Assembly (NCBI GenBank): GCA_016936255.1
Contig: JAFGYE010000026.1
Location: 1-64,000 of the forward strand
From: Marinifilaceae bacterium
GTDB taxonomy: Bacteria > Bacteroidota > Bacteroidia > Bacteroidales > Marinifilaceae
DNA length: 64,000 nt
Direction: 5' to 3'
Shown here in pieces: positions 59,406-63,984 of the stretch. The notes under the pieces are model-generated. The model was not told where the DNA came from, did not search any database, and worked only from the letters and a program-made list of their open reading frames with translations. Both the position numbers and the translations under genes were made by a program. Within the stretch, counting starts at the first letter, position 1, and every line of letters starts with the position of its first letter.

Positions 59406-59588
59406 TTCCTTTTTTTGCCAAACAGAATGATACATCAGTTTAATGTATAGTAATTTGCTGCAAACTTCACATATAAGTGATTACCTGCAAAAAAAAAGGC
59501 AAACAAGTCCTATATTTAGTATCTTAAAATTATAAGATTTTGCTACTTTTAATTGTTGCAACGATATATACAGAACAAACAGGTTTTT

Positions 59589-61835
59589 ATGAGTGGTGAG
59601 ACCGAAAAAGATAAACAACTAATACTTGACGCCTACGAGGAACTTTTGAAACATTGCAAAAGAAGCCGTGAGCCTGAGAGTAAACAATTGATAGATAAAG
59701 CTTTCCATTTTGCCTGGGAAGCTCATAAGGGCGTGCGCCGTAAATCAGGAGAGCCCTATGTACTGCATCCAATTTCTGTAGCTCAAATTGTAGCAGAAGA
59801 AATGGGTTTGGGTACTAAGTCCATTGTATCTTCCTTACTGCATGATGTAGTTGAAGATACCGAATATACACTTGAAGATATCCAAAATCATTTTGGTGAA
59901 AAAGTTGCCCAAATTGTTGATGGTCTGACTAAAATTTCAGACGTATTTGATCAACAAACCTCAATGCAGGCAGAAAATTTCAGAAAAATGCTATTAACCC
60001 TGTCCGACGATTTAAGGGTAATTCTGATAAAAATGGCTGACAGACTGCACAATATGCGCACTTTGAATTCAATGCCATTGCGCAAGCAAATGAAAATTGC
60101 CGGCGAAACACTATTCCTTTTTGCCCCTTTAGCACATAGAATGGGATTGTATTCTATTAAATCTGAATTAGAAGATTTAAGTCTGAGATATGAACACCCG
60201 GATGACTTTGACAACATTTCTAAAAAGATTATAGAACAAGAAACAAAGCAGCAAAAAATAATAGAAAGCATAATTGCTCCCATTGAGGAGAAACTGAAGC
60301 AAGCAGATATTCAATGCTCCATTAAAAACCGACCAAGGTCAATTTTCTCTATATGGAATAAAATTGAAACTCAGAATACCAGTATTGAAGAAATTTACGA
60401 TCTCATTTCCGTTCGGGTCGTTTTCACACCAAAAATTGGTGTTCCTGAGAAAAACCAATGTTGGAACATTTACTCCCTTATTACCGACATTTACAAACCC
60501 AAACCAGAACGTATCAGGGATTGGGTTAGTACACCTAAAGCCAACGGCTACCAGGCTCTGCACGTAACAGCTATGGGACCTCAGGGAAAATGGATCGAAT
60601 TTCAGATAAGAACAGAGAAAATGGATGACATCGCAGAAAAAGGTTTTGCAGTTCATTCCAAATACAATACCATTGGAAACGGTGAGTCTGAATTAGATAA
60701 ATGGCTAAACGATGTTCGTGAAATCTTAGATAATCCGGAAGCTGATGCAATGGCTTTTCTCGACGAATTTAAATTGAATTTATTTTCGAAGGAAATTCAG
60801 GTTTTTACACCTAAAGGTCAAATTCGCACCTTACCGAAAAAAGCCACGACCCTTGATTTTGCCTACGATATCCATACAGATATTGGAAATCATTGTATTG
60901 GAGCGAAAGTAAATCATCGGTTGGTTCCATTAAGCCATGAATTAAAAAGTGGTGATCAGGTAGAAATTTTAACCTCTGAAAAACAAGCACCCAAATATGA
61001 ATGGATCGAATTTGTAATCACTGCCCGCGCAAAGTCTAAAATTAAATCAGCCTTTAAAAAAGAAAGAAAAGAATACACTATAAAAGGTGCCAGAATGCTA
61101 GAAGACCAATTATCTGACAGCGGTCTTCTTCTAAATGCGAAAGCATTTAGAAAAATGCTGGAACACTACAAGCTTTCAAATAAAGAAGAATTATTTTATA
61201 AAATTGGTTTGGGAAAAATCAATATTAACGAAATTGATGGTGTCGTTCGAAAAAAATCAAAAAGCAAATTTATCAAGTATTGGAAACTTCAGTTTTTTGG
61301 AGGTTCGGGGGAAAATGAGGACGAAGAAATCCTTGAAACCCCTAATTCAAAACCAGAACTTGATAAAAAGAAAACCCTTATGCTTACAGAGTTAGCTGCT
61401 AATGAGAGCTACAAAATAGCATCTTGCTGCAAACCAATACCTGGCGACGAAGTTCTTGGCTATCTGGATATGGCTAATAACGTAACCATCCACAAAAGGA
61501 AATGCCCCAATGCATTAAAGTTAATGTCAAGCCAGGGCGATCGTATTCTTGCTGCAGACTGGACCAGTCATAGATTAATGTCTTTTCTCGCCATTATTGA
61601 ATTAACCGGAATTGATAAAATTGGTATTGTTAATGAAGTTACTAATGTTATCTCTAAAGATCATGATGTAAATATGCGCTCGCTGCACTTTGAAAGCCAT
61701 GATGGTGTGTTTGAGGGCTTAATCCATCTCTATGTTCACAACACTGAAGATCTTAACAATTTAATTATGAAACTTATCAAGATCAAAGGTCTTGATAATG
61801 TGAAACGTATCGAGAATATTGAAGAATACAGCTAA
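59589..61835 (+). CDS. rel: Bifunctional (p)ppGpp synthetase/hydrolase (RelA/SpoT homologue)
   Basis: The 748-aa stringent-response enzyme makes and degrades (p)ppGpp. I start at ATG 59589 (MSGETEKDK); the in-frame TTG 12 codons upstream is less likely. The HD hydrolase is intact (H85-D86 and E89-D90 in LLHDVVEDTE). The synthetase domain has the GYQALH motif and FQIRTEKMDDIAEKGFAVH. A TGS domain (VFTPKGQIRTLPKKATTLDFAYDIH read in parts), the CCKPIPGD zinc-finger-type motif and a C-terminal ACT domain follow. Both activities look functional, so it is probably the single long Rel of the genome. It is followed by fur. Confidence 0.95.
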   Translation: MSGETEKDKQLILDAYEELLKHCKRSREPESKQLIDKAFHFAWEAHKGVRRKSGEPYVLHPISVAQIVAEEMGLGTKSIVSSLLHDVVEDTEYTLEDIQNHFGEKVAQIVDGLTKISDVFDQQTSMQAENFRKMLLTLSDDLRVILIKMADRLHNMRTLNSMPLRKQMKIAGETLFLFAPLAHRMGLYSIKSELEDLSLRYEHPDDFDNISKKIIEQETKQQKIIESIIAPIEEKLKQADIQCSIKNRPRSIFSIWNKIETQNTSIEEIYDLISVRVVFTPKIGVPEKNQCWNIYSLITDIYKPKPERIRDWVSTPKANGYQALHVTAMGPQGKWIEFQIRTEKMDDIAEKGFAVHSKYNTIGNGESELDKWLNDVREILDNPEADAMAFLDEFKLNLFSKEIQVFTPKGQIRTLPKKATTLDFAYDIHTDIGNHCIGAKVNHRLVPLSHELKSGDQVEILTSEKQAPKYEWIEFVITARAKSKIKSAFKKERKEYTIKGARMLEDQLSDSGLLLNAKAFRKMLEHYKLSNKEELFYKIGLGKININEIDGVVRKKSKSKFIKYWKLQFFGGSGENEDEEILETPNSKPELDKKKTLMLTELAANESYKIASCCKPIPGDEVLGYLDMANNVTIHKRKCPNALKLMSSQGDRILAADWTSHRLMSFLAIIELTGIDKIGIVNEVTNVISKDHDVNMRSLHFESHDGVFEGLIHLYVHNTEDLNNLIMKLIKIKGLDNVKRIENIEEYS

Positions 61836-61936
61836 ATTAAAATTTATTCTAAATAAGCTTTCAGTTCTAAAAAAAATCACTATTTTAGACCCATTATTTT
61901 AAATTAGATTAGATAACACCTAGGTTATTTTTTGAT

Positions 61937-62395
61937 ATGAGCAACGAAGACACTAAAGAAATTGTTAAGAAGATGTTTACAGAATATCTTCAGAAAAAGG
62001 GACATCGAAAGACTCCGGAAAGATACGCAATACTAGATGAGATATATTCCCGGGAAGGACACTTCGATATTGAATCTCTTTATATTTTTATGAAAAATAA
62101 AAATTATCGCGTTAGTAGAGCAACCCTTTACAATACTATAGATCTTCTTTTAGATTGTAAATTGGTAGTTAAGCACCAATTTGGCAAAAATATCGCTCAA
62201 TTCGAAAAAGCATATGACAGCAACAAGCACGATCATTTGATCTGTATCCGTTGTGGCAAAGTACTTGAATTTTGCGATACCCGTTTAGAGGATGTTCGTA
62301 AAAATGTTTCCGATGATATGGATTTCAAAGTTTCTCATCATTCCTTATATATTTACGGAACATGTCAAGAATGTCGAAAAATTGAAACCAATTAA
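61937..62395 (+). CDS. fur: Fur-family metal-responsive repressor
   Basis: The 152-aa protein has the winged-helix DNA-binding domain (residues about 10-85, with [17 protein letters not shown]) and a dimerisation domain with metal sites. The regulatory site residues are visible in NKHDHLIC and in [13 protein letters not shown] structural zinc site is formed by CIRCGK and CQEC. Iron uptake control is the usual role, but a Zur- or PerR-like role cannot be excluded by eye. It lies between rel and purA, an order common in Bacteroidota, and is followed by its own terminator. Confidence 0.92.
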
Positions 62396-62418
62396 TTTAT
62401 CAACAATAAATATCTCTA

Positions 62419-62445
62419 AAAACCTCTATAACCGGAGGTTTTTTT
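62419..62445 (+). terminator. Intrinsic terminator of fur
   Basis: AAAACCTC (62419-62426) and GAGGTTTT (62435-62442) form an 8-bp stem with an 8-base loop, and T residues continue to 62445. It lies 24 bases after the fur stop. Confidence 0.85.
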
Positions 62446-62506
62446 ATGCCCAAAATTGACTTATCAACAAGACCCGTTTTCCTCTTCACGGAATAAAAAT
62501 ATTTAT

Positions 62507-62514
62507 TACCTTTG
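62507..62514 (+). promoter_or_regulatory. Candidate -7 element of purA
   Basis: TACCTTTG matches TAnnTTTG. Transcription would begin near 62521, leaving a leader of about 118 bases that contains the large inverted repeat at 62559-62598. No clear -33 box. Confidence 0.4.
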
Positions 62515-62558
62515 ACTGTTAAAACTTGTAAGTATTCTTCAAGATTTAACAACATACC

Positions 62559-62598
62559 CCAAACCAATTTTATAAATCCAATCATAAAATTGGTTTGG
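62559..62598 (+). repeat. 15-bp perfect inverted repeat in the purA leader
   Basis: CCAAACCAATTTTAT (62559-62573) and ATAAAATTGGTTTGG (62584-62598) are perfect 15-bp arms around a 10-base spacer, 40 bases before the purA start codon. No T-run follows, so it is not an intrinsic terminator. In RNA it would form a long stable hairpin; as DNA it could be a repressor site. It is distinct from the fur terminator upstream. Confidence 0.7.
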
Positions 62599-62638
62599 AT
62601 AATTACTTGTTAAGATTTACTATCAAATTATTAGACAG

Positions 62639-63910
62639 ATGAAAGTTGATGTACTTTTAGGCCTCCAATGGGGAGATGAAGGTAAAGGAAAAGTTGTGGA
62701 TGTACTAACCCCAAAGTACGATTTTATCACCCGTTTTCAGGGTGGCCCCAACGCAGGACACACTTTGGAATTTAATCAAATTAAGCACGTTCTGCATACA
62801 ATTCCTTCCGGGATCTTCCGCGATGATAAGATTAACGTTATTGGAAATGGTGTTGTTATCGACCCGGTAATTTTCAAGAAAGAAATTGAAGGAATAAAAA
62901 AACTTGGAATCGATCTATCCAAAACCTTATTTATTTCGAAGAAGGCTCATTTAATTTTACCTTCTCACAGAATTCTTGACGCGGCATCAGAAGCGGCTAA
63001 AGGAAAATCAAAAATTGGATCAACCCTTAAAGGAATTGGACCAACCTATATGGATAAAACCGGAAGAAACGGTTTACGTGTAGGAGATATCAAATTGAAC
63101 TTCAAGGAAAAATATGACTCTTTAGTTGACAAGCATCGTTTAATGCTTGACAAACTTTATGAGTTTGATTACGACATTTCTGAATATGAAACCGAATGGT
63201 TTGAAGGCATTAAAGTTCTAGCTGAATTTCAGTTAATCGACAGTGAACAATTTCTTAATGATGCTCTTAAAGATGGTAAATCAATTCTTGCCGAAGGTGC
63301 ACAGGGAACGATGCTCGATGTTGACTTTGGATCCTACCCATTTGTAACTTCATCGAACACTGTTTGTGCCGGAGCTTGTACTGGTTTAGGTATTGCACCG
63401 AATCGAATTGGCAGAGTTATTGGTATTTTTAAAGCTTATTGCACAAGAGTTGGTATGGGACCATTTCCAACTGAGCTTTTTGATACTGATGGAGATTTGT
63501 TAAGAGCTAAAGGAAATGAATTTGGATCGACAACCGGTCGTGCCAGAAGATGCGGTTGGTTGGATCTTGTTGCTCTTAAGTATTCGATCATGATTAACGG
63601 CGTTACTGAATTAACCATGATGAAATCGGATGTAATGGACGATTTTGACACCATTAAAATTTGTACATCTTACCTTGTAAATGGTGAAGAAGTTGAGCAT
63701 GTTCCTTATGAAATGACTGACGATATCAAACCTGTTTACACAGAGTTTAAAGGTTGGAAAACTGATATGACTGCTGTTACTCATGAGAATGAGTTCCCTG
63801 AAGAATTTAATGCTTACATTAATTTTATTGAGGAAGAAACCGGAGTAACTGTTAAAATTGTTTCTGTTGGTCCAAACAGAGCTCAAACTATTGAAAGAAT
63901 GCTTGATTAA
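62639..63910 (+). CDS. purA: Adenylosuccinate synthetase PurA
   Basis: PurA joins IMP and aspartate using GTP, the first committed step to AMP. The 423-aa enzyme has the P-loop-like GLQWGDEGKGKVVD at its start with the catalytic aspartate in GDEG, GPNAGHT, the IMP-binding GSTLKGIGPTYMDKTGR region, AEGAQGTMLDVDFG and the C-terminal TTGRARRCGWLD. Everything is canonical. It is a single gene closed by a strong terminator. Control may act through the leader hairpin (inference). Confidence 0.97.
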   Translation: MKVDVLLGLQWGDEGKGKVVDVLTPKYDFITRFQGGPNAGHTLEFNQIKHVLHTIPSGIFRDDKINVIGNGVVIDPVIFKKEIEGIKKLGIDLSKTLFISKKAHLILPSHRILDAASEAAKGKSKIGSTLKGIGPTYMDKTGRNGLRVGDIKLNFKEKYDSLVDKHRLMLDKLYEFDYDISEYETEWFEGIKVLAEFQLIDSEQFLNDALKDGKSILAEGAQGTMLDVDFGSYPFVTSSNTVCAGACTGLGIAPNRIGRVIGIFKAYCTRVGMGPFPTELFDTDGDLLRAKGNEFGSTTGRARRCGWLDLVALKYSIMINGVTELTMMKSDVMDDFDTIKICTSYLVNGEEVEHVPYEMTDDIKPVYTEFKGWKTDMTAVTHENEFPEEFNAYINFIEEETGVTVKIVSVGPNRAQTIERMLD

Positions 63911-63950
63911 TCAGGCACAACAATAAAAGTCTGTTAAGACTCACAAAAAA

Positions 63951-63984
63951 AAAACCTGTTTGAAAATCAAACAGGTTTTTTTTT
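63951..63984 (+). terminator. Intrinsic terminator of purA
   Basis: A 13-bp stem (63951-63963 with 63967-63979, core ACCTGTTTGA/TCAAACAGGT) with a 3-base loop is followed by T residues up to 63984. A matching A-run before it makes it potentially bidirectional. Confidence 0.92.

Follow-up and report, generated by a model that had tools for sequence, protein, structure and literature searches.

Purine-related riboswitches (the purine (RF00167), PRPP and ZTP/pfl classes) and the 5′-terminal stabilising hairpins of the ompA type are the described systems closest to the leader considered here. Comparative genomics has also yielded candidate structured RNAs of Bacteroidetes, among them Bacteroid-trp, Bacteroidales-1, Flavo-1 and others (PMC2864571). 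For B. thetaiotaomicron, a published study gives a median 5′ UTR length of 32 nt, with a minority of mRNAs (13.5%) exceeding 100 nt (PMC7366714). Among open-licence articles in PubMed Central, screened by title and the start of the abstract and, where there were more, among the best 20, we found none on the control of purA or on a purA leader in Bacteroidetes.

The locus described here lies in the window, the 64,000-nt stretch of Marinifilaceae DNA that was analysed, and resembles each of these systems in part. It is like the purine-related riboswitches in placing a folded 5′ leader ahead of a gene of purine biosynthesis; unlike them, it has no such Rfam match (E up to 5), precedes one gene per genome with no regulon, is clade-restricted in the genomes searched, and carries no + strand terminator at its inverted repeat. 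Its first hairpin, P1, recalls the ompA type in standing at the (inferred) mRNA 5′ end, but the stem pairs of P1 are invariant, and behind it come another conserved hairpin and more segments that are kept. With Bacteroid-trp, Bacteroidales-1 and Flavo-1 it shares the phylum and the recourse to comparative genomics, whereas none of these is tied to purA in the available part of their description (PMC2864571) and none is among the Rfam matches obtained here.

The inverted repeat before purA

A RelA/SpoT-like ORF, fur and purA follow one another on the + strand (Table 1). We take the last to be purA from general knowledge of the family and a first reading of the sequence, and the names fur and RelA/SpoT-like are likewise presumptive. 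Between fur and purA, 40 bases 5′ of the ATG, the first-pass annotation had placed a perfect 15-bp inverted repeat, and the exact arms with their 10-nt loop are indeed found there. Its view that the repeat is not a terminator also holds, in that the stem is followed on the + strand by ATAATTACTT, with no T-run on inspection of the sequence, and a terminator is listed at the repeat in the − strand reading only.

Table 1. Positions of genes and leader features in the window
Feature	Position	Strand	Remarks
RelA/SpoT-like ORF	59553-61835	+	upstream of fur
fur-family regulator	61937-62395	+	upstream neighbour of purA
−7 promoter element, TACCTTTG	62507-62514	+	fits Bacteroidetes TAnnTTTG
Inferred transcription start	62518-62519	+	G-5 at 62514 would put +1 at 62519
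P1 hairpin, GUUAAA-A-CUUG / CAAG-A-UUUAAC	62518-62550	+	10 pairs, loop 11 nt
P2 (inverted repeat)	62559-62598	+	conserved core 62559-62565 / 62592-62598
Inverted repeat arms	62559-62573 and 62584-62598		15 nt, 100% complementary, gap 10 nt
TTTTATAAATCC	62568-62579	+	between P2 core arms; 9 of 12 positions invariant (13-row alignment)
UAAAUC	62573-62578	+	might pair with GAUUUA at 62614-62619 as a pseudoknot or alternative helix; weak
TAAGATTTA	62611-62619	+	near-copy of P1 3′ strand; nearly invariant (13-row alignment)
Possible P3, ATCAA-A-TTATT / GATGA-AAG-TTGAT	62622-62650	+	start codon within stem
purA, adenylosuccinate synthetase	62639-63910	+	423 aa

Perfect inverted repeats with arms of at least 14 nt and a loop of 3-20 nt were absent from 12 dinucleotide shuffles of the window, and the RNA around the repeat folds with a z of -4.06, none of 200 shuffles folding as well. 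Two perfect repeats with arms of at least 15 nt (same loop range) occur in the window itself, the one in the purA leader and one at 63946-63984. The latter, after purA, is an 18-bp perfect inverted repeat with an A-run and a T-run and resembles a bidirectional terminator.

On comparison with relatives, the perfection of the 15-bp arms is a feature of the window's strain, a local extension of P2, because L043 (from G071, labelled as the same species) has T instead of A in the 5′ arm and hence a mismatch, because the Labilibaculum relatives L010-L013 keep a long but imperfect stem (L010 has a G-U, L011 a mismatch as well, L012 and L013 indels), and because the rest retain a seven-position core. 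Outside the Labilibaculum core, P2 is reduced to its outer seven positions, most sequences having a mismatch within them, and in Marinifilum all that remains is CCGAACC/GGTCCGG, or a close variant of it, interrupted by a mismatch.

The exact 15-mer has three copies in the genome, namely both arms and one within the upstream RelA/SpoT-like ORF, where 61198-61212 is an exact copy of one arm (ATAAAATTGGTTTGG). There are 12 further copies with one mismatch, against 5 matches for the backward control; the extra copies are probably due to chance, though they stand somewhat above the control.

The surroundings of fur hold other features. TTATCAACAA, which we take to be one letter off the DnaA-box consensus, occurs twice, at 62397-62406 and 62461-62470, flanking the fur terminator; its second copy is slightly changed in aligned relatives and shorter (TCAACAA or near) in Ancylomarina. 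A scan of the fur protein against viral contigs gave no match and was uninformative.

A conserved leader with two hairpins

In the Bacteroidetes element TAnnTTTG, the T is placed at -12 and the G at -5 (PMC6847099). The promoter element TACCTTTG is present in type in 12 relatives (L010-L021) and the same element recurs in five Ancylomarina sequences. Because the G of TACCTTTG at 62514 is taken as -5 on that placement (PMC6847099), +1 would fall at about 62519, one base past the first base of P1. A start near 62518-62519 would therefore give the purA mRNA a leader of about 120 nt, with P1 within a base or two of its 5′ end and an AU-rich stretch between P2 and the AUG.

In P1, ten pairs flank a mismatch, A.A here and A.C in some of the relatives; all ten are invariant in 16 distinct leaders, and the arms are 10-12 nt apart across leaders. 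P1, never varying, could equally be kept as sequence. The half-sites of P2 are separated by 24 to 30 nt between genomes (30 in L059), and its six core pairs are formed in 96.9% of cells, with 3 of 96 broken (16 distinct leaders); a seventh position between the core pairs, where A faces U, C, A or G, was excluded from the model as a mismatch. TTTTATAAATCC forms a loop in Marinifilum and is partly stem in the window sequence.

Conserved folding was assessed on a MAFFT alignment built without structure (A4, with 18 rows of which 16 are distinct, the two duplicates being left uncounted). The consensus fold of the leader has an energy of -12.14 kcal/mol; column shuffles gave -1.80 +/- 1.68 kcal/mol, and none of the 500 was as low (z -6.2). 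No shuffle among 500 was as low for the P2 region alone, nor for the nine leaders outside the Labilibaculum core, which lack the long repeat. Fourteen segments served as controls (one upstream of fur, three within fur and ten within purA, with 12-15 distinct sequences and 300 shuffles each); their z values lay between -2.18 and +1.11, and for the segment at purA +1125, 8 of 300 shuffles were as low. Secondary structure conserved on the mRNA strand, the property by which we would recognise a structured leader, is thus found at a level that none of the 500 shuffles reached and outside the 14 controls.

The strand on which the fold is conserved bears on its nature. A lesser score is obtained for the consensus of the reverse complement (z -3.3, with 5 of 500 shuffles as low), because P1 is symmetric; that consensus keeps P1 and loses P2, and the loss favours RNA over a DNA operator. 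The one-sided, pairing-preserving changes in P2 are G-U on the mRNA strand (GU in 7 cells, UG in 1), these eight cells representing few independent events. Single-sequence folds have z values of -2.3 to -3.9 in L009-L013 and -2.5 in L017, and the remaining nine of the 15 leaders have ordinary values (-0.1 to -1.9). The single-sequence z thus follows the state of the P2 stem; in nine of the 15 single leaders the reverse complement is more stable than the mRNA strand. Base-pair covariation showed no excess over shuffles among the 16 distinct leaders (73 of 500 reached the score), and one P2 pair is changed on both sides (G-C, G-U, A-U). Overall, we see moderate evidence that selection acts on the leader as RNA.

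Identity in the leader exceeds that at 4-fold-degenerate sites of purA in all 78 pairs compared (mean 0.82 vs 0.57). Nonetheless, sequence conservation proves little here, because conservation is even higher in the 125 nt 5′ of fur (0.869 vs 0.814 for the leader, which is higher in only 21 of 105 pairs), a control that takes in the end of the ORF before it. This upstream region, 61812-61936, includes a long block rich in A and T that ends in AAATTAGATTAGATAACACCTAGGTTATT; the region may represent the promoter and operator of fur. Synonymous constraint specific to the start of purA was considered and rejected (10 of 22 codons for purA, counting comparable codons among the first 25, vs 8 of 20 for fur).

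These results can be set against the view that the leader has no function and that the perfect repeat is a strain-level accident in an ordinary conserved intergenic region. The loss of the perfect arms in L043 and the other aligned relatives is as that view would have it, as are the equal conservation upstream of fur and the lack of significant covariation; the consensus fold is not, since it lies far beyond both the shuffles and the 14 controls and does so also when the Labilibaculum core is removed, and we consider an absence of function very unlikely. The first-pass annotation had proposed that a lack of conservation or covariation in close relatives, or a scattering of the sequence through the genome, would speak against a role: the leader is conserved in relatives and is no scattered repeat, and covariation is weak.

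Distribution and single occurrence in the genome

A covariance model comprising P1 and P2 (R1) was built after 13 leader-bearing purA loci had been oriented and aligned. R1 matches 16 of 56 genomes of the family, in 5 of 17 genera, once per genome, and in all 16 cases purA follows directly at the expected distance; the named carriers are Labilibaculum and Marinifilum. Across 393 genomes sampled evenly from the order, searched with strict filters under which weak matches are lost, the one match was the window's own genome. With 150 of 6712 candidates scored, R1 has a single match in that genome at E values up to 10. In seven of nine genomes of the genus the exact P1 pattern is present once, at purA, the exceptions being G003, with one extra match that has a longer gap, and G006 (63% complete), with none. 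A P2-type pattern, CCGAACCNTTTTATAA, allowing one mismatch, gave 13 matches in nine genomes, two of them purA leaders, vs 11 for the backward control, and was set aside as being at chance level.

The first-pass annotation had offered a stable 5′ hairpin or a large operator as plausible. The hairpin survives, now as P2 of a two-hairpin leader present in five genera. Under an operator reading, a dimeric repressor of purA would bind P1, which lies immediately 3′ of the promoter, and/or P2; P1 is indeed invariant in sequence and placed to block polymerase, the elements have inverted symmetry, and P1 is kept on the reverse strand. A large operator is nonetheless less likely, because the spacing of the P2 half-sites varies, because the P2 consensus appears on the mRNA strand only, and because the P1 pattern is single. 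Variable spacing extends to the arms of P1 as well, and the confinement of the exact P1 pattern to purA in most genomes of the genus leaves no regulon by exact match. We therefore regard an operator as distinctly unlikely. A regulon operator was likewise rejected, R1 and the exact P1 pattern being single-copy at purA in the window's own genome, a result that covers matches to the model and exact copies of the pattern.

Known classes and alternative pairings

The first-pass annotation had not recognised a purine riboswitch, and Rfam models compared with 62300-62800 gave none, the 14 matches with E up to 5 being of other kinds and all below their gathering scores. No conserved leader ORF or leader-peptide attenuator was found, 12 of 16 leaders having no ATG at all; a CTG frame begins before the inferred +1 and stops within the leader in 15 of 16, and a TTG frame of 14 codons is open to the leader end in 6 of 16 only.

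Three further pairings were considered and rejected. The pseudoknot UAAAUC/GAUUUA is paired in 96.9% of cells, with two of its six pairs broken in some rows, and is weak, its pairing measures being no better than shuffles. For the P1 5′ strand, a helix with the TAAGATTTA copy is predicted at -1.7 kcal/mol vs -6.0 kcal/mol for P1 itself in L009, and at -0.7 to -2.2 kcal/mol over 15 leaders, so that a switch of this type is not supported. Counted by eye, 7 of 15 leaders have P3 in their minimum-energy fold, and sequestration of the start codon by it was discarded, AUG accessibility being ordinary, 13th lowest among the 44 ATG-start ORFs of at least 150 codons in the window. A ligand-sensing switch would be conceivable at most; the competing pairings examined are weak or no better than shuffles, and the start codon is no more occluded than is usual. 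That the leader would be the first of a riboswitch-like class in marine Bacteroidales, sensing a purine-pathway metabolite or the state of adenylate supply through P1 and a P2 pseudoknot (UAAAUC with GAUUUA), with a diverged form in Ancylomarina that has mutually exclusive helices, is to our mind an improbable proposal.

The sister genus and the putative 5′-terminal hairpin

Five genomes of the genus Ancylomarina gave no R1 match, the best in the four named Ancylomarina loci having E 0.23. Five Ancylomarina purA leaders, of 189-191 nt, differ from the R1-type leader. What they share is the promoter, a 5′ hairpin, GUUAACA/UGUUAAC, that begins at the same base as P1, and the words AACCGTTTTAT, as in Marinifilum, and ATCAAATTATTA, with little else (by eye). 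Their consensus fold, -26.68 vs -12.97 +/- 3.40, was reached by none of 300 shuffles. Within alignment A3, segment 41-50 can pair downstream with 69-78, two of the five sequences losing one pair, and segment 41-48 can also pair upstream with 12-19 (by eye; seen in the L069 fold), so that 12-19/41-48 and 41-50/69-78 are mutually exclusive helices. All five leaders (L063-L065, L069 and L022) contain a short ATG frame that begins MY(Q/L)LG(Y/C)NQPFYSNYLS and has species-variable tails. The suggestion from these five sequences is that the 5′-terminal hairpin of the purA mRNA is older and that the rest of the leader changes quickly.

P1, with P2 behind it, could be a constitutive stabiliser that shields the purA mRNA from 5′-end-dependent decay and senses nothing. 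P1 starts at the inferred +1; its first three bases are predicted to be paired with probabilities of 0.80-1.00 in 15 of 15 leaders; and Ancylomarina has a different hairpin in the same place. A helix would lie within a few nucleotides of the mRNA 5′ end if the start deduced from TACCTTTG is right. A stabilising stem would, however, be expected to drift with compensation, whereas the pairs of P1 are invariant letter for letter, and the conserved TTTTATAAATCC and TAAGATTTA are left unexplained. Folding just after the start is also inconsistent in other Bacteroidales purA leaders: a general 5′ hairpin there was rejected at a mean z of -0.95, with z below -2 in 5 of 17 loci, these being the usable ones of 84 (the other 67 were without a usable promoter, a recognised start or enough leader). 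A purely constitutive stabiliser is in our judgement unlikely.

Discussion

Overall, we lean, with slightly better than even confidence, towards the reading that the repeat is P2 of a folded purA 5′ leader of about 120 nt, working in cis as RNA. I read this leader as a candidate clade-restricted cis-regulatory leader RNA. In its general outline, P1 would begin no more than a base or two from the 5′ end of the purA mRNA, followed by P2 and then by the AU-rich stretch that leads to the AUG. The folded leader would set purA output after transcription start, through protection of the 5′ end and/or through binding of a cellular factor that alters decay or translation.

The leader probably tunes the amount of PurA enzyme, since close relatives, the marine bacteria Labilibaculum and Marinifilum, also keep a folded leader. 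A role in purine control is a candidate one, its sole basis being purA as the downstream gene. Regardless of the specific route, a leader of about 120 nt with two conserved hairpins is a concrete candidate, open to test, through which the IMP-to-AMP branch might be controlled at the RNA level, and it is small enough for direct probing.
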